Below, piece by piece: positions 17,511 to 33,903 of a stretch of DNA of 39,640 nucleotides. Below the pieces are notes generated by a model. It had not been told where the DNA came from. It saw nothing but the letters and a program-made list of their open reading frames with translations, and ran no database searches. Every line of letters begins with the position of its first letter. Position 1 is the stretch's first letter. The DNA comes from Leptolyngbyaceae cyanobacterium M33_DOE_097 (GTDB lineage Bacteria > Cyanobacteriota > Cyanobacteriia > Leptolyngbyales > Leptolyngbyaceae): positions 1-39,640 of the forward strand of contig DVDV01000436.1 of assembly GCA_015296075.1 (NCBI GenBank), written 5' to 3'. Position numbers and translations under genes: made by a program.

Positions 17511-18128
17511 TTAAGCCCCTTCAAAAATGGCGACAACGGCAAACACCAAAAATAATACTCCACCGATCGCCGTTACAGCCCGTTCTGAAACTTTTCCGGC
17601 AATTAGACAGCCGCCCCACACCGCAATTAAGGCACAGATCGTATGGCCCAAAATCGCTCCCAGTGTGACCCCAACGGCATTGTTAGCAGCTGCCAGTGTG
17701 ATCGTGGCAATTTGGGTGCGATCGCCCCACTCAGCCAAAAAAGTCAAAATAAAGCTTTCAAATAGAATCGCCCAATGACTGCGATGGCCCTTCAGTTTTT
17801 TCTCACCCAGCTCAACCGCTTCTTTCGCTTCACCCACTACCTCATCGGTAGCTGATGCCGACATGCGACTGGCTTCGTAGAGAAGTTTTAACCCAAAGAA
17901 GAGAAATAAACTAATCGCTGCGTAATGGGTGTAGGCTTTGGGCAGAAATGAAAAAACTTGCCCAATCGCGACAGATAGCAATGTCATAGCTGCCAATGCT
18001 GCAACAACTCCCGCCAAAACCAAATGGCGTGGGTGCCGCATCGACAAAATCATCGCGATAAAGAATGTCTTATCGCCCAGTTCTGAAATTGTAATCAGTA
18101 ATAAGCCTGCGGTAAAAGCGCTTAGCAC
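17511..18128 (-). CDS. mnx: UPF0016/GDT1-family manganese exporter (Mnx-like)
   Basis: This 205-residue membrane protein belongs to the TMEM165/GDT1 (UPF0016) family. Its two symmetric halves carry the family signature E-x-G-D-(K/R)-T: E-L-G-D-K-T at residues 16-21 and E-W-G-D-R-T at 133-138. About six transmembrane segments are evident, split by a charged linker (about 90-118). Cyanobacterial homologues such as Synechocystis Mnx export Mn2+ from the cytoplasm toward the thylakoid lumen. The start is GTG at 18128 with GAGGAG 8 nt upstream. The leader contains a yybP-ykoY manganese riboswitch aptamer at about 18225-18367, which independently supports manganese as the substrate and explains the regulation. 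The CDF gene follows on the same strand. Confidence 0.92.
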   Translation of the reverse strand: MLSAFTAGLLLITISELGDKTFFIAMILSMRHPRHLVLAGVVAALAAMTLLSVAIGQVFSFLPKAYTHYAAISLFLFFGLKLLYEASRMSASATDEVVGEAKEAVELGEKKLKGHRSHWAILFESFILTFLAEWGDRTQIATITLAAANNAVGVTLGAILGHTICALIAVWGGCLIAGKVSERAVTAIGGVLFLVFAVVAIFEGA

Positions 18129-18224: not shown

Positions 18225-18367
18225 GAAGGTCTCGCTTCTCAAGCTTGAATGCTTGGCCAACGATTTAAAGACCAAGCAAAAATCAAATCTTGCTACCCAA
18301 ACCAGGCAAACGCCAGTATGTTGACTTGGGTGACTGGTTAATTCGCAACCAGCAGCTACTCCCCTTC
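18225..18367 (-). ncRNA. yybP-ykoY manganese riboswitch
   Basis: Read on the minus strand the aptamer opens with GAAGGGGAGTAGCTG (from 18367), the conserved first element of the yybP-ykoY family, and closes with GCGAGACCTTC (ending at 18225), the conserved last element. The ends GAAGG and CCTTC pair as P1. Between them are a CTGGTT/AACCAG hairpin and a longer ACCCAA/TTTGGGT arm, plus a further helix around GCTTGG. The family senses Mn2+ and controls manganese exporters, including UPF0016 genes, exactly as found downstream here. The apparent 88-residue ORF at 18141-18407 overlaps this RNA and is not credible. Confidence 0.9.
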
Positions 18368-18449: not shown

Positions 18450-18479
18450 TTCACTTTTAATTCACTTTCATTTCACTTT
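18450..18479. promoter_or_regulatory. Three 8-mer repeats in 11-bp phase
   Basis: TTCACTTT occurs exactly at 18450-18457, 18461-18468 and 18472-18479, separated by TAA and CAT. Three 8-mers with 3-bp spacers is the layout of the cyanobacterial Pho box and of other OmpR/PhoB-type sites, although the 8-mer itself differs from the known Pho-box consensus. It lies between the mnx leader and the b561-type gene and could serve either. The protein that binds is unknown. Confidence 0.5.
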
Positions 18480-18610
18480 TTTCTCATAATTAAATATACT
18501 TTTTCGTTAACTTATTATGCTAAGAAATGAACTGAAAACACTCAACACAAGCGATCGCTCACCTGTGTTGAGATAAGTGATACAAGCCGACTCGCACCTC
18601 AAAGCTAAAA

Positions 18611-19318
18611 ATGAAATCGACTCAACCTTACCAACCCCTCCTCCTGCGGATTTTGCATGGGCTGACAGGTCTGTTTTTGGTGGCCGCAATCCTCACTGCC
18701 TTCTGGACTTACGACACCTACGATGGACGCTGGGGAAGAATTCCACTCCCCACTTATCAAGAGATTGAAGGCATTCATGGCACGTTTGGCTTGTACACTT
18801 TGCTGATCTTTCCTGCTTTTGTGGTGTATGCCTTTCACCGGGGGCAACGGCGGTTAGTGCAGACTGACTCACTTGCGAGCCTGACCCAGGTAGGCCAACC
18901 GGCTTGGTGGTATACGCTCAACCGTGTGACAAATACCTTTGCGCTGCTTGCCCTCACCTTTGCTCTCTTTACGGGCAAGATGATGGATGAAACCTGGCTA
19001 CCTAAGGGGGAATTAAATCATGCCTGGTACTATGCGCATTTGATTGGCTGGGTGGTGATGGTTGCCGCGATCGCCCTGCATCTGCTGATGAATGCCAAAG
19101 TCGGTGGTGCGCCCCTGCTCCTCTCTATGCTGAGCTGGAAATTTCGGGCCAACGACAGTCCTAAACTCTGGATGACTCATATTTCCGCATGGTGGTCAAC
19201 GGTTCAGCAAGGGGGTTGGTCAACCTGGTTCCAGTCACCTCGCCTCCTCCTGGTACTAGAACTCTTGATTCTGCTCAGCATCGTCGCCGCTTGGATCACT
19301 CCCCTGTTCAAGTCGTAG
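18611..19318 (+). CDS. Cytochrome b561-type membrane protein
   Basis: This 235-residue protein has about five hydrophobic segments (near 11-31, 56-75, 106-122, 140-160 and 211-231). It resembles the cytochrome b/b6 domain (b561, Ni-Fe hydrogenase b-type) proteins that carry two b hemes across the membrane. Possible heme ligands are His16 (R-I-L-H-G-L-T-G), His56 (G-I-H-G-T-F-G), His143 (Y-A-H-L-I-G-W) and His157 (A-L-H-L-L-M), two on each pair of helices. An electron-transfer role at the plasma or thylakoid membrane is likely, but no partner dehydrogenase is adjacent. No clear ribosome site precedes the ATG. It lies between two metal-export units, converging with coaR only 18 bp away; whether it takes part in metal homeostasis, for example as a metal reductase, is open. 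Confidence 0.75.
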   Translation: MKSTQPYQPLLLRILHGLTGLFLVAAILTAFWTYDTYDGRWGRIPLPTYQEIEGIHGTFGLYTLLIFPAFVVYAFHRGQRRLVQTDSLASLTQVGQPAWWYTLNRVTNTFALLALTFALFTGKMMDETWLPKGELNHAWYYAHLIGWVVMVAAIALHLLMNAKVGGAPLLLSMLSWKFRANDSPKLWMTHISAWWSTVQQGGWSTWFQSPRLLLVLELLILLSIVAAWITPLFKS

Positions 19319-19336: not shown

Positions 19337-20449
19337 CTAAATCTTGGTCAGATAGCAATGGCAATCTGGCTTCTCAATCAACGTCTCAACCAATGCGTTG
19401 AGCGATACAGCGGCCAACAGTCCACCGCCCAGGCTACCCTGAATCGTGATGTAGGGCGATCGCGCTTCCATGAGCCGCCGTTTTGCCGCCGGAGCGTGGC
19501 TAAACCCAATCGGCATCCCAATCACTAACGCGGGTTGCAGTCGTCCCTGCTCGATCAACTTGCAGACTGTGAGCAGCACCGAAGGCGCATAGCCAATTAC
19601 CAGGACACACCCCGGTAAAAGGTGGTGTAATCGCTGTTGCCACCGCTGCTGTTGCCAAAATGCCTGCTCAGCTTCATGAGCCGCTGTAATATGGGGGTCA
19701 TCGATTAGCACCTCAACCGAACACCCCAAATGGGCTAATCGCGTCTGGTCGATCGCCGCTGCGACCGCAGGCACATCCACAACCACAGGACAACCTGCTT
19801 GAAGCGACTCTCTGGCTGTCGCGATCGCCGTTTGACTCAACCGGACAAAATGGATCAGACTCACATCGCCACAGGCCAGCACGAGTTGGTGCAGCAGATG
19901 AATAGTGATCTCGGAGTAGGTTGACAAATCGGGCAGCAAGCGTTGCAACGACTCTTGAAAGGCTTCTGGATGGGTGGTTATCTCTGCATCTAGATTGCTC
20001 CAAAGTTGATCGAGTTGCCCTAACCCTGCTTGAGCATCGACATCTAACTGCTTCAGTTGCGCCAGCGCTTCGGCCTGTCTAATTTGGCAATCGAGATCGC
20101 GGCCCAGTAAACCTTCCAACGCTGATGCCGTTTGACGCAAACGCGTGATCTGTTGAATCACCGAACGATATTGCTGCTGTAACTGCGCCATTAACGTTGG
20201 GTCGAGGGTTGCCTCCGCGTGGCTATCCAAAAGCTGCTGGATATGCGACAACTGAAACCCCTGCTGTTTGAGCGCCATAATCCGCTGCAGGCGTTGCACA
20301 TCGTGCTGGGTGTAAAGCCGATAGTTTCCCTTTGAACGCGGTACAGGCGGCAGCAACCCCAACGTGTGATAGTGCCGCACCATGCGCGGAGTCACGCCAC
20401 CCCCAACCGCATCCGTCAATTCCTTAATCGTTAACTGCTCAGTCTTCAT
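19337..20449 (-). CDS. coaR: Cobalt-sensing regulator CoaR (MerR fused to precorrin isomerase-like domain)
   Basis: This 370-residue protein has a MerR DNA-binding domain (T-P-R-M-V-R-H-Y-H-T-L-G-L-L and N-Y-R-L-Y in the first ~45 residues) and coiled coil to about 145, fused to a domain related to precorrin-8X methylmutase (CbiC/CobH) over about 165-360, with G-M-P-I-G-F-S-H-A-P-A-A-K and the G-S-L-G-G-G-L-L-A-A-V motif. The last residues contain Cys363-His364-Cys365, the motif required for cobalt sensing in Synechocystis CoaR. In that organism CoaR activates coaT in response to cobalt, probably also sensing tetrapyrrole intermediates. Here it diverges from coaT across an 82-bp gap with the expected operator (20468-20502). 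All hallmark features and the length match. Confidence 0.95.
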   Translation of the reverse strand: MKTEQLTIKELTDAVGGGVTPRMVRHYHTLGLLPPVPRSKGNYRLYTQHDVQRLQRIMALKQQGFQLSHIQQLLDSHAEATLDPTLMAQLQQQYRSVIQQITRLRQTASALEGLLGRDLDCQIRQAEALAQLKQLDVDAQAGLGQLDQLWSNLDAEITTHPEAFQESLQRLLPDLSTYSEITIHLLHQLVLACGDVSLIHFVRLSQTAIATARESLQAGCPVVVDVPAVAAAIDQTRLAHLGCSVEVLIDDPHITAAHEAEQAFWQQQRWQQRLHHLLPGCVLVIGYAPSVLLTVCKLIEQGRLQPALVIGMPIGFSHAPAAKRRLMEARSPYITIQGSLGGGLLAAVSLNALVETLIEKPDCHCYLTKI

Positions 20450-20467
20450 CCTCCCAGCTTACTCGAA

Positions 20468-20502
20468 ACATTGACATTGACACTAATGTCAATGTTTAAG
20501 GT
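20468..20502 (+). promoter_or_regulatory. CoaR operator and coaT promoter
   Basis: The plus-strand -35 TTGACA (20471-20476) and -10 TAAGGT (20497-20502) are separated by 20 bp, as expected of MerR-family activated promoters. Two overlapping dyads are present: 10-bp arms ACATTGACAT/ATGTCAATGT (20468-20477 and 20486-20495) and a 7-4-7 dyad ATTGACA-CTAA-TGTCAAT (20476-20493). Position and spacing match the known design of the Synechocystis coaT promoter. Confidence 0.88.
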
Positions 20503-20531
20503 GAAAGAGTCCGACTTTCACACTTTCAGTT

Positions 20532-22454
20532 ATGGTTTCTGTTACGTCAGATCACCCACGTTCAACCAACCTGCTTAAGGAGCATCCTGATGCGGTAGCC
20601 GCGATCGCTTGTGCGCTGCTCGTGTTGATCGGCTGGCAATCCTTGAACCTTGGCTGGGTGGGAGCCGCGCTTTTAATTCTGACGGCTGCCTATGTCGTTG
20701 GCGGGTTTGAGAGCGCCCGCGAAGGGTTAACAACGCTGGTTCAAGAAAAAGAACTTGATGTCGATCTGCTGATGATTGTGGCGGCTTTGGGTGCGGCTTG
20801 TTTAGGACTTTGGCGGCGAGAATATCACTTGATTGTGGATGGTGCCGTTCTAATTTTGATTTTTGCTATCAGTGGGGCTTTAGAAGGCTATGCCATGCAG
20901 CGCACCGATCGCAATATTCGCAGCTTGATGAGTTTGACGGCCGATACCGCGCGTCTGGTGCGGAACGGGCAAGAACAAATCATTCCAGTTGCTCAGCTAC
21001 AGGTTGGCGATCACGTTTTGGTCAAACCGGGAGAGCTGGTTCCGGCGGATGGTTTGGTTTTTGAGGGACACAGTACCCTCAACCAGGCGTCAATCACGGG
21101 TGAATCCATTCCTGTTGAAAAGGCGATCGGGGATGAAGTCTTTGCTGGCACGCTGAATGGACAGGGGGCACTGCGCCTCAAAATTCATCAACCGCCTGAA
21201 AGCAGCTTGATTCAACGCGTGATTCGGCTGGTGCAGCAAGCCCAAACCGAGGCACCACCCTCTCAACAATTTATCGAGCGGTTTGAGCGCGGATATGCCA
21301 AGGTGATTGTGCTGACGGGGCTTTTGTTGGGCACGTTGCCCCCATTTATCTTGGGTTGGAGCTGGGAGGAGACGATTTATCGTGCCCTGATCTTTTTGGT
21401 GGTGGCGTCACCCTGTGCGTTGATGGCGTCGATTATGCCAGCCTTGCTGTCAGGAATTGCCAATGGGGCACGTCATGGCATTTTGTTTAAGAATGGGGCG
21501 CAGTTAGAGCGGATGGGGCGCGTTAGGGCGATCGCCTTTGACAAAACCGGAACCTTAACCACGGGCAAACTCGAAGTGGTCGATCTACTGTCAACGTCCA
21601 CCACCGACCAGCTGCTGCAAGTAGCGGCAGCATTAGAGCGTTTGTCTGAGCATCCCATCGGGGAGGCGATCGTGCAGGCTGCTCAACAACAGCAGTTGGC
21701 TGGAGTGTCAGCCGTCAACGGTCAGGCGCACGCAGGACAGGGCATCACAGGGGAACTCGCGGGGCAAATGGCTGTGGTGGGTAAAGCGGCTTTTGTCACG
21801 GCACAGGTAGACCAGGTTGCCGAAACCTTGCTCCAGCAGAGCCAGCAATGGGAAGCCGCAGGAAAAACGGTCGTCTGGGTTGCCTATAACCAGGAAGTAT
21901 TAGGACTGATTGCCGTTGCCGATACGGTGCGACCTGCTGCTGCTGCCGCGATCGCCCAGTTAAAAAAACTTGGTGTGGAACAGATTGTCATGCTAACAGG
22001 CGATAACACACGTACCGCACATGGTATCGCTGAACAGATTGGAGTCGATCAGGTCTATGCGGAGTTGTTGCCCGAAGATAAAGTAGAAGTAATTTGCCAG
22101 TTACAAAAGCAATATCAAATGGTGGCGATGGTGGGTGATGGGATTAATGATGCACCTGCACTCGCGCAAGCCTCGGTTGGAATTGCAATGGGATCCGCAG
22201 GCAGTGATGTGGCGCTAGAAACAGCGGATATTGTCTTAATGGGCGATCGCCTGGAGCGATTAGAACACGCGATTCGGTTAGGGCGTCGCGCTCAAGCTGT
22301 TGTCAAGCAAAATATTGTGTTTGCCCTGAGTTTTGTGATGATCCTACTTGTTCTTAATTTTGCAGGCAGCATTACTCTACCCTTCGGCGTTTTAGGGCAT
22401 GAAGGCTCAACGGTGGTTGTGACCCTAAGTGGGCTGCGCTTACTCAGAAGCTAG
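20532..22454 (+). CDS. coaT: Cobalt-exporting P1B-type ATPase CoaT
   Basis: This 640-residue P-type ATPase lacks an N-terminal HMA domain and has the S-P-C motif (Ser293-Cys295, V-A-S-P-C-A-L-M-A-S) in place of C-P-C, both marks of the P1B-4 group that exports Co2+ and related metals. The actuator T-G-E-S-I-P, phosphorylation site Asp337 in D-K-T-G-T-L-T, nucleotide-binding S-E-H-P-I-G-E-A and hinge [11 protein letters not shown] are all present. Only about six membrane segments are evident, as usual for this group. It is transcribed divergently from coaR through the promoter at 20468-20502. No clear Shine-Dalgarno lies before the ATG at 20532. The stop codon is the first triplet of the second copy of the 51-bp repeat. 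Confidence 0.95.
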   Translation: MVSVTSDHPRSTNLLKEHPDAVAAIACALLVLIGWQSLNLGWVGAALLILTAAYVVGGFESAREGLTTLVQEKELDVDLLMIVAALGAACLGLWRREYHLIVDGAVLILIFAISGALEGYAMQRTDRNIRSLMSLTADTARLVRNGQEQIIPVAQLQVGDHVLVKPGELVPADGLVFEGHSTLNQASITGESIPVEKAIGDEVFAGTLNGQGALRLKIHQPPESSLIQRVIRLVQQAQTEAPPSQQFIERFERGYAKVIVLTGLLLGTLPPFILGWSWEETIYRALIFLVVASPCALMASIMPALLSGIANGARHGILFKNGAQLERMGRVRAIAFDKTGTLTTGKLEVVDLLSTSTTDQLLQVAAALERLSEHPIGEAIVQAAQQQQLAGVSAVNGQAHAGQGITGELAGQMAVVGKAAFVTAQVDQVAETLLQQSQQWEAAGKTVVWVAYNQEVLGLIAVADTVRPAAAAAIAQLKKLGVEQIVMLTGDNTRTAHGIAEQIGVDQVYAELLPEDKVEVICQLQKQYQMVAMVGDGINDAPALAQASVGIAMGSAGSDVALETADIVLMGDRLERLEHAIRLGRRAQAVVKQNIVFALSFVMILLVLNFAGSITLPFGVLGHEGSTVVVTLSGLRLLRS

Positions 22455-30299: not shown

Positions 30300-33005
30300 T
30301 TAGGCAGCGCGTCGTCGGGACGCTTTCAAGCCTGCGATCGCGGCTGTTTGAACACTGTTCCAATAGCTCTGAATCACAGCTGCCATGACCTGTACGTTCG
30401 GCTCTTGCAACATGCTGGAATGCCCACCTGGAATGTCATAGACTTTCACAGTTTCAGTCACGCGTTGTTCCCAACCCAGCAAGGGATCGGCATACAACTC
30501 TACATAAGGTGTATCGTCAATGGCTGTACCATCAAAGACACTGCTTTTTTCTGTGGCGCGAAATAGAAGAACTTCACCCTTTAAAGCCGTGTCAGGCACA
30601 TATTTTGATTGCGCCCACACTAGAATCGTACGCACTGGAATGTTTTGCAGCCACTTTGGAAGTGTGAGTTGCCGATCTAAACAGGTTTGAAAGAGCTTTA
30701 GTTGCACGCGATCGCGCAGGGTTTGGTAGCGCTTCTGCAACTCATAGGCAATCACATTGGTTGCCTTTTGCCGCATTTGATTCAAGATGAACAAGCTCCG
30801 GTTGACAAGTGGCAGTTGTTTGCTATCGCGCAACACTTTTGAGAAACTATCGCGCCGCTGGCTTGTAATGTAACCTGCTTGCTCTTCGGCTTCGACATCC
30901 GCCGCGTCAATAATCGCGACCATGCCAATTTCCTGACCTTGAAGCTGGAGCTGGCGAGCAATTTCAAACGCTAGCACGCCTCCTGCACATAGCCCCCCTA
31001 AAAAGTAAGGCCCTTCAGGTTGTACAGCCTGGATCTGTTCGATGTAGTAAGCCACCATTTCTGCAATTCGTGTGTGCAGAATTGGATGGCCATCGCAACG
31101 ATAAGGTTGTACCCCATAAACCGGAACATTTGCATCCAAATGGTGAGCTAGACCCTGATACAGAAGTGTCTCACCATCTCCATCATGAATCAAGAAGATG
31201 GGTGGTTTACCAGCACCCGGTTTTAACGGAACAATGCTGGCGTGGGTTTGAGTTTGGCCAGAGGGTTCAAAATAGGTGGCGAGTTGGGCGATCGTCGGTG
31301 CTGTGATTAACGTGCTGAGGGGCAATTGCTTGCCAAGCTGTTGTTCGAGTTCGTGAAAGAGACTAACGGCCAACAGCGAGTGTCCGCCCAGGTCAAAGAA
31401 ATTGTCCTGGACTCCAACGGTTTGAATCCCTAAAACCGATTCCCAAATTTGAGCCAACTGCTTCTCTAACTGATTGCGAGGAGCCACATAGGGTCTGTTA
31501 GCAACCACCTGTTTTTTGCGATCGCCCCCATTGCCAGCCGATTCTGCCGCCTCAAAGGAGGGTAACTCTGACAGTCTAATACCAGGATTTGCCACAACTT
31601 GCTCTAACAAATTCTTGTAGCGTTCTAAGAGGCAGGCGATCGTTTCGGCTTGAAAGAGATCTGTCTTATATTGCAGTGTGACTGTCAATTTGCCACCTTG
31701 CTCATTCACCGACAGAGCCAGGTCAAAGTTAGCAACCTCTCGGTTAACGAAAACAGAACTGACTGACAAACCCGCTAAATCTAATGTGGGAATCGGCGTA
31801 TTTTGCAACACGAACATCGCTCGTGTGAGTGGAGTACGCTTCAGGTTGGGCAGATCGGCCACCAGTTGCAAGGGCACATCTTGATATTGTGATCCCTCGC
31901 TAAAAGTTTCACCCACCTGTTCGAGTAGTTCGCTAAAACTGGGATTGGCTGATAAGTCCGTTCTCAATGCCACCACATTATTGAAGTAGCCTATCAAACC
32001 ACGCATCTCAGCCCGGTGTCGTCCAGCCACCGGAGAGCAAATGACGAGATCCTCTTGACCCGTATGCTGATGTAATAGCCCATTAAAGGCCGCAAATAAC
32101 GTGACGAAAAGGGACACCCCTTGCTGGGCACTCAAACTTTTTAATGCAGCCGTGAAGTCGCTCGACAAAACCTGAGACTGCACGCCTCCTTGATAGGAAG
32201 TCGCCTGCGATCGCGGGTAGTCGATCGGCAATGCGAGAGGGGGAACATCACCCTGCAAATGCTTTTGCCAATAGTTGAGTTGCAGCTCAAGCAAATCGCC
32301 CTGGAGCCACTGCCGCTGAGTCCAGGCAAAGTCAGCATATTGCACGGGCAAATCTAATAGAGGAGAGGGCTTTTGTAACACAAAAGCAGAGTAAAGTGCG
32401 CCTAATTCGCGAATAAACACACTGTGCGACATGCCATCAAAAACAATGTGATGGATGGTACGCAGTAACACGTGTTCTTGATCAGCCAGTTGTAGCAATG
32501 CAACTCGCCATAAAGGTGCCTGGCTCAGGTCAAATGGAGCTTCGGCCTGGGCGATCGCCCTTTTTTCAACTTCGATCTGTTGTTGCTCTGGGGAGATTCC
32601 ACGCAGGTCAACACAATCAATCGCGATCGCCACGTCTGGCAAGATGACCTGCACAGGTTGCCCGTTTTCAACGCCAAAAATAGTCCGTAAAACTTCGTGT
32701 CTGCGTGCAATTTCATTGACGCTCTGTTCGAGCATCGCAGTATTGAGTGGGCCAACCAGTCGAAAGGAATGCAGAATATTGTGGACGGAAGTGCCCGGTT
32801 GCAATTGTTCTAGTTTCCAAAGCCGCTCTTGATTAAATGACAACGGTAACGGCAAATCACGTGGAACTGGTCGAATGGGCGGCGACTGATGTAGTAACCG
32901 CACATTATTGCGTGCCATTTGCCAGAAACTAGGTGCTGGCTTGGTTTGGTGGGTTGTTTCTAATCTTTCTGAAGCGTTTGTAGGCAGATCGGTAGACAGC
33001 TTCAT
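30300..33005 (-). CDS. NRPS-like C-T-TE protein without adenylation domain
   Basis: With the ATG at 33005 this is 901 residues; an upstream TTG at 33059 lacks a ribosome site, whereas AGAGG stands a few nt before 33005. A condensation domain (about 50-470) has H-H-I-V-F-D-G, with catalytic His186 and Asp190. A carrier domain (about 505-575) has D-L-G-G-H-S-L-L with the phosphopantetheine Ser543. A type I thioesterase domain follows, with nucleophile Cys673 in G-G-L-C-A-G-G rather than serine, and His862 in G-G-H-S-S-M-L. Cysteine is known in this TE subgroup, so activity is expected. There is no adenylation domain, so the substrate for Ser543 must be loaded by another protein; the ligase and carrier encoded divergently at 33904-35735 are obvious candidates. 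It is the first gene of the leftward cluster. Confidence 0.9.
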   Translation of the reverse strand: MKLSTDLPTNASERLETTHQTKPAPSFWQMARNNVRLLHQSPPIRPVPRDLPLPLSFNQERLWKLEQLQPGTSVHNILHSFRLVGPLNTAMLEQSVNEIARRHEVLRTIFGVENGQPVQVILPDVAIAIDCVDLRGISPEQQQIEVEKRAIAQAEAPFDLSQAPLWRVALLQLADQEHVLLRTIHHIVFDGMSHSVFIRELGALYSAFVLQKPSPLLDLPVQYADFAWTQRQWLQGDLLELQLNYWQKHLQGDVPPLALPIDYPRSQATSYQGGVQSQVLSSDFTAALKSLSAQQGVSLFVTLFAAFNGLLHQHTGQEDLVICSPVAGRHRAEMRGLIGYFNNVVALRTDLSANPSFSELLEQVGETFSEGSQYQDVPLQLVADLPNLKRTPLTRAMFVLQNTPIPTLDLAGLSVSSVFVNREVANFDLALSVNEQGGKLTVTLQYKTDLFQAETIACLLERYKNLLEQVVANPGIRLSELPSFEAAESAGNGGDRKKQVVANRPYVAPRNQLEKQLAQIWESVLGIQTVGVQDNFFDLGGHSLLAVSLFHELEQQLGKQLPLSTLITAPTIAQLATYFEPSGQTQTHASIVPLKPGAGKPPIFLIHDGDGETLLYQGLAHHLDANVPVYGVQPYRCDGHPILHTRIAEMVAYYIEQIQAVQPEGPYFLGGLCAGGVLAFEIARQLQLQGQEIGMVAIIDAADVEAEEQAGYITSQRRDSFSKVLRDSKQLPLVNRSLFILNQMRQKATNVIAYELQKRYQTLRDRVQLKLFQTCLDRQLTLPKWLQNIPVRTILVWAQSKYVPDTALKGEVLLFRATEKSSVFDGTAIDDTPYVELYADPLLGWEQRVTETVKVYDIPGGHSSMLQEPNVQVMAAVIQSYWNSVQTAAIAGLKASRRRAA

Positions 33006-33903
33006 AAGCCTCTTTCTCAGCAATGAAATTGGATAGTCAAATAAATTTGTCAAGCGCAACGATGGAGCCTAATCTCACAAAGAATGAAAAGATAATGAGA
33101 AAAGGTTTTGTTAATTGAGTTTAAAAAAGCGAAACTTTAACACCCCGATTGTTTGGCTCAGGTTGAAGGTAGATGCATTGGGGGCTTCGGTGAAAATACG
33201 GTAGTAATATTACTGTGAGTGATTACTTCATTCCTGACAGGCTTATCGGTGTTAGGTTTCAGGGCGATCGCAGTTCTGCAAAGTTAATGGCTAAGTAGAA
33301 TCACCGTTAACCTAGGGCAACAGCAGAGTTGTATCGTCCGTTTACATTGCTAAACCCGTAAAAATAACGAATTAGGTCTATATGCTGAATTTAACCACTA
33401 AGTGTGATCTTCAAGACTATGTGAGTATTTTTTAATCAAAATTTTATATAACGATGAAAATTTGATTTTTTTACTGACACTCTCCCATCAAACGAAATGA
33501 ATGATGTCATAACAAGAGAAGTTATCTTTCGGTGAGGAAATTGATCTGCCAATCTCATGTTGCTGAGTCTCATGAGAATTAAAAAAGACAAAATAAATAA
33601 GGCCTGCTGATTTGATTATTTTTAGCCAAATAAGACAAATATCAGGTGTGCAAGAGATAGACAGACACGAAAGAGAGAAAAACTGCAAGTCAATATTCAC
33701 CTGTTCAAGTTCAAGACATTTACTTTCTCCCTTCAGGCCATTCGGTCACTCAGGTCTTATTAAGGTGTATTTCCTACTCCTATTTTTTGTTGCAGCCAAT
33801 CGCTTCTCACCCACCTTTAGAGCAGATAACGTGAGCGGGTTAAGCCCCTAGAATCCTCGCTTGCCTATATCTCGGTGTGTTCTAAGTTTTTTCAAGGAAG
33901 TTT
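33006..33903. other. Divergent control region of the biosynthetic locus
   Basis: This 898-bp, A+T-rich region separates the leftward C-T-TE cluster from the rightward carrier-ligase operon and should hold both promoters. I see no credible gene; the 79-residue frame at 33612-33851 and the 70-residue frame at 33488-33700 look random. Features noted are a 12-bp perfect palindrome AGTAATATTACT (33203-33214), a 7-bp stem TCTCATG/CATGAGA with an 11-nt loop (33553-33577), and a hairpin with T-run at 33435-33472. Its length exceeds what two promoters need, so a long leader or small RNA is possible. Confidence 0.45.
33435..33472 (+). terminator. Candidate A+T-rich terminator in the divergent region
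   Basis: Arms ATCAAAATTTT (33435-33445) and AAAATTTGAT (33457-33466) pair with one bulged A, followed by seven T (33466-33472). The stem is weak because it is almost all A-T. If real it would end a plus-strand transcript begun in 33060-33430, where I see no gene, so a small RNA is a possibility. Confidence 0.3.

Follow-up and report, generated by a model that had tools for sequence, protein, structure and literature searches.

A conserved 11-bp direct repeat upstream of a cyanobacterial cytochrome b561 gene as a candidate operator of a manganese-linked OmpR-family regulator

Introduction

Repeats of several head-to-tail units placed one helical turn apart are the pattern of OmpR/PhoB-type binding sites. 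In cyanobacteria, the Pho box (SphR/PhoB) is built from 8-mers of the PyTTAAPyPy(T/A) type, and HLR1, the site of RpaB, is a repeat of the GTTACAWW type.

Regarding manganese, the OmpR-type regulator ManR represses mntCAB in Synechocystis when the metal is sufficient; knock-out arrays led to mntCAB, and later RT-qPCR added futABC, exbBD, and tonA (PMC7020235). Two articles present ManSR as the sole system so far identified for transcriptional manganese homeostasis in cyanobacteria, with mntCAB as the main target. No published letters of the ManR site were found in the literature searched. The CopR site of Synechocystis is TTCATN4-5TTCAT, a repeat also reported at the mntC and nrs promoters, and outside the cop genes, carriers of CopR-like repeats are reported to show no copper response (PMC4182526). 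Also in Synechocystis, the half-size UPF0016 proteins encoded by hmx1/2 are manganese importers, and no significant change of the hmx1/2 and mnx transcripts is reported in manganese excess (PMC11649195).

Here, we analyze a repeat array in a 39,640-nucleotide stretch of Leptolyngbyaceae cyanobacterium M33_DOE_097 (contig DVDV01000436.1, the window), which was singled out by a first-pass annotation made from the letters alone.

Results

In the window, TTCACTTT TAA TTCACTTT CAT TTCACTTT is an exact match at 18450-18479 (+), with 3-bp spacers and a period of 11 bp, and the three perfect 8-mers described by the first-pass annotation (18450-18457, 18461-18468, and 18472-18479) stand as they were read. 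With up to three mismatches allowed, this triplet is the sole match in the window and is found in none of 100 dinucleotide shuffles of the whole window. The plus strand of the window has no other exact 8-mer triplet repeated at a constant period of 9-14 bp, and when the local 91 bp were shuffled 20,000 times, no such triplet arose. At the same tolerance, the triplet is matched once in the own 6.96-Mb genome, at the array, this being the only one of the 42 genomes of the order with a match. The reversed-pattern control gives one match in the own genome, and in the window it falls on the same array (18449, one mismatch) because TTCACTTT resembles its own reversal; over the 42 genomes, it matches in one other genome (G024). 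A literature search combining TTCACTTT with cyanobacter returned nothing relevant by title.

A fourth unit, CTCATAAT (18483-18490), lies in the same 11-bp phase, its YTCAY part being CTCAT (18483-18487, +) followed by AATTAA, and each of the first three units begins with TTCAC (18450-18454, 18461-18465, and 18472-18476, +). Comparison with other loci, described below, shows that the conserved element is YTCAY-N6-YTCAY, which is shorter than TTCACTTT, and that the array is longer, with four units. The earlier definition of the unit is then kept for the three exact 8-mers and replaced for the conserved part, which is YTCAY in four copies. Where OmpR/PhoB-type sites have at least two head-to-tail copies at about one helical turn, the array has four at 11 bp. 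Three phased YTCAY units are matched twice in the own genome, both overlapping matches being the array, and the reversed control also matches twice, in the window again on the array.

The Pho box resembles the array in its 8-mers, 3-bp spacers, period of 11 bp, and three copies. Nonetheless, the letters are TTCACTTT/YTCAY and not of the PyTTAA type, as the first-pass annotation had pointed out, so the array does not classify as a Pho box; the neighboring genes are also metal linked. HLR1 is likewise a direct repeat of an OmpR-family regulator, probably with a different half-site and spacing.

The array lies between two divergent genes, in agreement with the position between a manganese exporter with its riboswitch and a b561-type gene that had been proposed initially. 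On one side, a full-length GDT1/UPF0016 transporter (Mnx-like) is encoded at 17511-18128 (-), preceded by a yybP-ykoY Mn2+ riboswitch (RF00080) at 18274-18365 (-), outside the array. The riboswitch match (18365-18274) reaches 32.4 bits (E 5.2e-7) with the UCAACAUACU core aligned, which is below the Rfam curated cut-off of 45 and missing from the default scan; the fold alone is uninformative (z -1.41). This element is an RNA, unlike the array, and precedes the divergent GDT1 here and GDT1-b561 pairs elsewhere. On the other side, a b561-type membrane cytochrome (PF01292), the proposed controlled gene, is encoded at 18611-19318 (+). The frequency of its R13, H16, H56, H137, H143, and H157 among 45 aligned sequences rounds to 1.0, and the conserved histidines would likely be heme ligands. 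A literature search for cytochrome b561, cyanobacter, and manganese returned no cyanobacterial b561 paper by title. Further metal-related genes nearby are a MerR-CbiC fusion, a P-type ATPase, a CDF transporter, and a second P-type ATPase. By their domains, the MerR-CbiC fusion and the P-type ATPase form a divergent pair (19337-22454), which presumably resembles the CoaR/CoaT cobalt system.

Conservation upstream of orthologous genes, the check suggested with the first-pass annotation, was addressed with 51 upstream regions of b561 of 300 bp each (49 loci, the window, and L078). These counts cover the fetched loci, of which those from MAGs are possibly misassembled, and the short AT-rich alignments are weak. 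For the spacing spectrum, 35 regions were used; the 16 others were omitted because the gene immediately upstream, in the same orientation, is GDT1 or a P-type ATPase. In the 35, pairs of YTCAY are found at distances of 11 bp (14 pairs), 22 bp (6), and 33 bp (3), and no other distance between 5 and 45 bp occurs more than twice. YTCAY-N6-YTCAY is present in 8/51 regions (window, L078, L003, L004, L005, L008, L022, and L024), so the 11-bp spacing is kept in part of the orthologs, which at this level goes against the refuting condition named with the first-pass annotation. The controls over the 51 regions gave none on the other strand, one with N5, none with N7, and none for the complement, and the reversed pattern matches one region, the window, on the array itself. 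Except for L003 and L008, whose upstream regions are 94% alike, the remaining pairs among the eight have 31-62% identity, and therefore the phased units outlast their background. The neighbor across the array also varies, being GDT1 in the window, atpG in L004, an ECF sigma factor gene in L005, and a MerR-type gene in L022 and L024 (in L022 by likeness to L024). The array is absent from the other 43 regions, L002 among them, where the b561 protein is 82% identical, and the sole same-genus genome compared gave no match to b561.

The CopR box shares with the array a TTCAT half-site and the head-to-tail arrangement. The array differs from it in having N6 and not N4-5, four units, and C or T as the last base; YTCAY-N5 is found in one of the 51 regions and the distance of 9 bp (N4) in no pair of the 35, which sets the array apart from a CopR box.

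The only other array with four units is that of G014 (L123, 8272-9330), where b561 is split in two overlapping frames by a frame break. In this genome, three phased YTCAY units have five matches against none for the reversed control, two of the five being at the b561 array. There is no GDT1 beside this b561, and a riboswitch-like sequence is present that cmscan did not report; the locus looks like one in decay. A second recurring association of b561 with metals is seen in L017, L018, L021, L023, and L030, where it directly follows, on the same strand, a match to a CoaT-like or other P-type metal ATPase, and in L048, where the order is ATPase, GDT1, and b561.

The same box is found at other genes. 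An hmx-type (half-size UPF0016) protein, whose correspondence to Synechocystis hmx1/2 rests on size and family, is matched in 42/42 genomes of the order, and all 30 hmx loci fetched carry a RTGAAA-N5-RTGAAA box. In 29 of them, the box precedes the farthest of the listed in-frame starts by about 10-50 bp (for L177, no start is listed), and in 26/30 a GATA precedes it and forms, together with the first unit, a GATAAT-like hexamer. Outside the order, the protein is matched in 48/117 genomes, and 16 of 28 further loci fetched have a strict RTGAR pair; by reading, L259 and L261 of this set have TTCAC-N6-TTCAT in reverse orientation. A 4-codon leader ORF (ATG..TGA) generated by the 11-bp repeat was also considered for the hmx box and rejected, since the b561 arrays lie reversed.

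A matrix trained only on 11 distinct 17-mers from hmx loci was then scored over the 51 b561 regions. Eight regions reach 11.4-18.5 bits, the window being first (18.5 bits, units 3 and 4, 18471-18487), and the other 43 remain at or below 5.9. No shuffle out of 200 reached the observed score for the window, L003, L004, L005, or L008, the corresponding numbers being 5/200 for L022 and L078 and 7/200 for L024. The 49 b561 loci, 301,539 bases in total, have 22 matches of at least 11 bits: 10 in the 320 bp before b561, 7 upstream of GDT1 (L033, L035, L037, and L048), and 5 elsewhere. One of the 10, at L011, is a single box outside the eight array regions.

In the own genome, ATGAA, which reads TTCAT on the opposite strand, recurs with the 11-bp phase upstream of an mntC-like gene. 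Among 19 close orthologs, the pair spacing peaks at 11 bp (15 pairs, the next highest being 4), and the box is present at seven loci (own genome and six others of the order) and absent from 12; none of 11 farther homologs has it. The metal of this protein is uncertain, hence the label mntC-like. It belongs to the ZnuA family, its best solved relatives are manganese-binding proteins, with cyanobacterial MntC chains among the matches listed, and two of the three other ZnuA-family members of the genome are nearest to zinc proteins. Against NCBIfam, no model passed, with 254 for AztC (zinc; cut-off 350) and 212 for MntC (cut-off 400). The resemblance to the ManS/ManR-mntCAB system consists of an 11-bp repeat of the array's half-site, which stands at the mntC-like gene in the own and six other genomes, in a metal-import context. 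It differs in that the target here is b561, with four units in the opposite orientation, and in the uncertain metal of the mntC-like protein. The architecture of OmpR/PhoB type read in the first pass is well supported by the 11-bp repeat at b561, hmx-type, and mntC-like genes. What is directly visible in the DNA is the array with its phase, the conservation at some of the b561 orthologs, and the box in common with hmx-type and mntC-like genes.

A strict form, TTTCAY-N5-TTTCAY, has 12 matches in the own genome against 8 for the reversed control, several of them inside genes. Two boxes (23.5 and 22.4 bits with the matrix) are found in the region that separates the mntC-like gene from a divergent ABC ATPase/permease pair, and another just before two half-size UPF0016/GDT1 genes. 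On contig C47 (L164 and L165), a strict box lies between the gene of an RppA-type regulator (L122, with a kinase-like gene adjacent) and a CzcB-like adaptor gene, so labeled from a weak match below cut-off, and another precedes a multicopper oxidase gene. Apart from the array, the only window match above 11 bits is TCTCATTATCTTTTCAT (33084-33100, -), which has 19.1 bits; the listed start of an ORF that reads as condensation/NRPS-like (30300-33059, -) follows after about 25 bp. This box may be background, and therefore one box of such a score is no proof alone.

Regarding which of the two neighbors the array would serve, GDT1 is matched in 42/42 genomes of the order, and 29 of 30 loci fetched have riboswitch seed strings. 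A box of at least 8 bits is present at two of these 30, the window and L210, and absent from 28. Since 29/30 GDT1 loci keep the seeds and 28/30 lack the box, the box goes along with b561, be it alone or paired, rather than with GDT1. An operator of the exporter was for this reason rejected as the main reading: the GDT1 orthologs keep the riboswitch seed strings and not the box. Of the loci in which GDT1 and b561 share a strand, 11 were examined (b561 is the first gene in L046; L040 was omitted because its tblastn coordinates and identities equal those of L039), and cmscan reports the manganese riboswitch in eight. In four, a phased RTGAR pair lies upstream of the riboswitch (L033, L037, and L048) or of a seed string that cmscan does not report (L035). 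L210, from G001, is a GDT1 ortholog without riboswitch seeds, with a box of 16.3 bits 79 bp before the start of the match; in this case, control by RNA could possibly have been swapped for control by protein.

Promoter-like sites near the array number two, against a shuffle mean of 0.8, a weak excess. A candidate -10, CATAAT (18485-18490, +), is a weak promoter-like match inside unit 4, with a -35-like TTCACT in unit 2 (18461-18466, +) at 18 bp; by reading of the listing, the last unit of other b561 arrays also is YTCAYAAW. A second candidate -10, TATACT (18495-18500, +), is 17 bp from the TTCACT of unit 3 and is unconserved among the aligned orthologs. A third, TATGCT (18516-18521, +), would, in an alignment made by reading, correspond to TATGTT in L078, L005, and L002 and to TACATT in L004, so that TATGTT or TATGCT is present in four of five sequences. 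For L003 and L008, 16 bp separate the end of the last 11-bp unit from the ATG.

The own genome has 23 matches to Trans_reg_C (PF00486), and 4 of 10 regulators tested pass the RppA cut-off (L109, L110, L113, and L122), none of them standing out as the ManR ortholog. A phased pair is present in the 300 bp upstream of 2/18 regulator genes (L122 and L114). By tblastn, response-regulator genes lie near b561 in 3/49 loci (L021, L036, and L047), and none was found near 30 mntC-like or 30 hmx loci; with so few neighbors of this kind, linkage does not name the regulator.

Discussion

The array is very probably a protein-binding switch at the b561 gene, because the repeat recurs at b561 elsewhere and at genes related to manganese uptake. 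Going further, we consider it moderately probable that it is a b561 operator for an OmpR-family regulator of the ManR/CopR/NrsR type, linked to metals, probably manganese, and perhaps blocking RNA polymerase. In this model, the four YTCAY half-sites, one per helical turn, would be on the same face of the DNA, and response regulator dimers of this family (ManR/CopR/NrsR, RppA-like group) would occupy them head to tail, ManR or its counterpart being the most likely candidate. The b561 gene would then belong to a manganese-linked regulon with the hmx-type and mntC-like genes, since the same box is present at them. We infer in this way the regulator protein, its signal, the sign of control, the promoter, the binding, and the transcription starts.

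Occupancy would most likely block RNA polymerase because the box units overlap plausible core-promoter hexamers at hmx loci, and possibly here as well, and because the last unit in L003 and L008 is near the ATG. The main alternative on this point, to which we give an appreciable chance that stays well short of even, is that the array activates b561 from upstream in the PhoB manner, with TATGCT at 18516 as the true -10 and a poor -35 abutted by the array. The alignment of TATGTT/TATGCT in four of five sequences and the orientation of the b561 arrays, opposite to that of the hmx and mntC-like boxes, would fit activation. However, L002 has TATGTT without an array, the 16 bp left in L003 and L008 give no space for a downstream promoter, and the GATA before the hmx box, making a GATAAT-like hexamer in 26/30 loci, suggests repression. 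Repression is thus put only slightly ahead of activation. Against it, b561 in some lineages accompanies GDT1, an exporter under riboswitch control, an arrangement that would suit induction by manganese better than repression.

It is unlikely, although worth keeping in view, that an operator of this same kind is read by a copper-, nickel-, or zinc-type regulator (CopR/NrsR-like) and responds to another metal or to redox stress. The strict boxes by the L122 regulator and CzcB-like genes and by the multicopper oxidase would agree with this, as would the zinc model being the top NCBIfam one for the mntC-like protein (below cut-off) and the richness of the window region in metal-transport genes. 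In addition, the Synechocystis CopR site has a similar repeat, TTCATN4-5TTCAT, but its printed spacing is N4-5 and not N6 (PMC4182526). Also against this reading, hmx-type genes have the best-conserved boxes, and several lineages couple b561 to GDT1 and a manganese riboswitch.

Another family of regulators that reads direct repeats, such as a LexA-like or a nucleoid protein, seems improbable given that a row of head-to-tail units one helical turn apart is typical of OmpR/PhoB sites. In favor of LexA, mntC and mntA rise in the Synechocystis lexA mutant and a title cited in the same article has a LexA orthologue binding direct repeats; against it, metal limitation is named there as a possible cause of this rise, and LexA binding at mntC is unlisted in the accessible part of the article (PMC4759255).

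It is very improbable that the array is an upstream element of the divergent riboswitch-GDT1 promoter, near b561 by accident. Four of the 11 same-strand loci do have the box upstream of GDT1, oriented relative to it as here. Nonetheless, the box is absent at 28 of the 29 other GDT1 loci of the order, and b561 arrays persist beside atpG, the ECF sigma factor gene, or the MerR-type gene.

Finally, chance or drift in a T-rich stretch, the low-complexity origin that had been considered at first, is hardly credible and was discarded: the region is T-rich and 2/20,000 local shuffles have three phased YTCAY units, but none of the 20,000 has the 8-mer triplet or four units, and neither the conservation at b561 nor the transfer of the matrix across genes fits such an origin.

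Returning to the manganese-linked operator, a wider reading, which we hold tentatively and at a little less than an even chance, is that YTCAY-N6-YTCAY could be a manganese box spread widely among cyanobacteria and recognized by ManR or a sister protein, controlling metal import (hmx and mntC-like genes) together with b561. If so, the b561 electron-transfer protein would join manganese homeostasis as a new component under regulation, hmx would not be purely constitutive, and candidate letters would be available for the site of a manganese-sensing regulator. The box at 30/30 hmx loci, the mntC-like gene, and b561 constitute a testable candidate regulon, which could link membrane redox chemistry to the manganese supply of photosystem II.

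Beyond these genes, three phased TTCAY units have 26 matches in the 42 genomes against 7 for the reversed control. None of the 25 outside the window lies wholly within an ORF of more than 100 aa, and because the adjacent downstream genes are varied, such units alone define no single regulator. For example, the triplets at L054 and L064 (also L065 and L066) adjoin a conserved, secreted-looking MNQK/MNQN gene, with a purM-like gene (AIRS domains) on the other side in L054 and one that looks alike in L064; the triplets at L054 and L064 are probably the site of another regulator.
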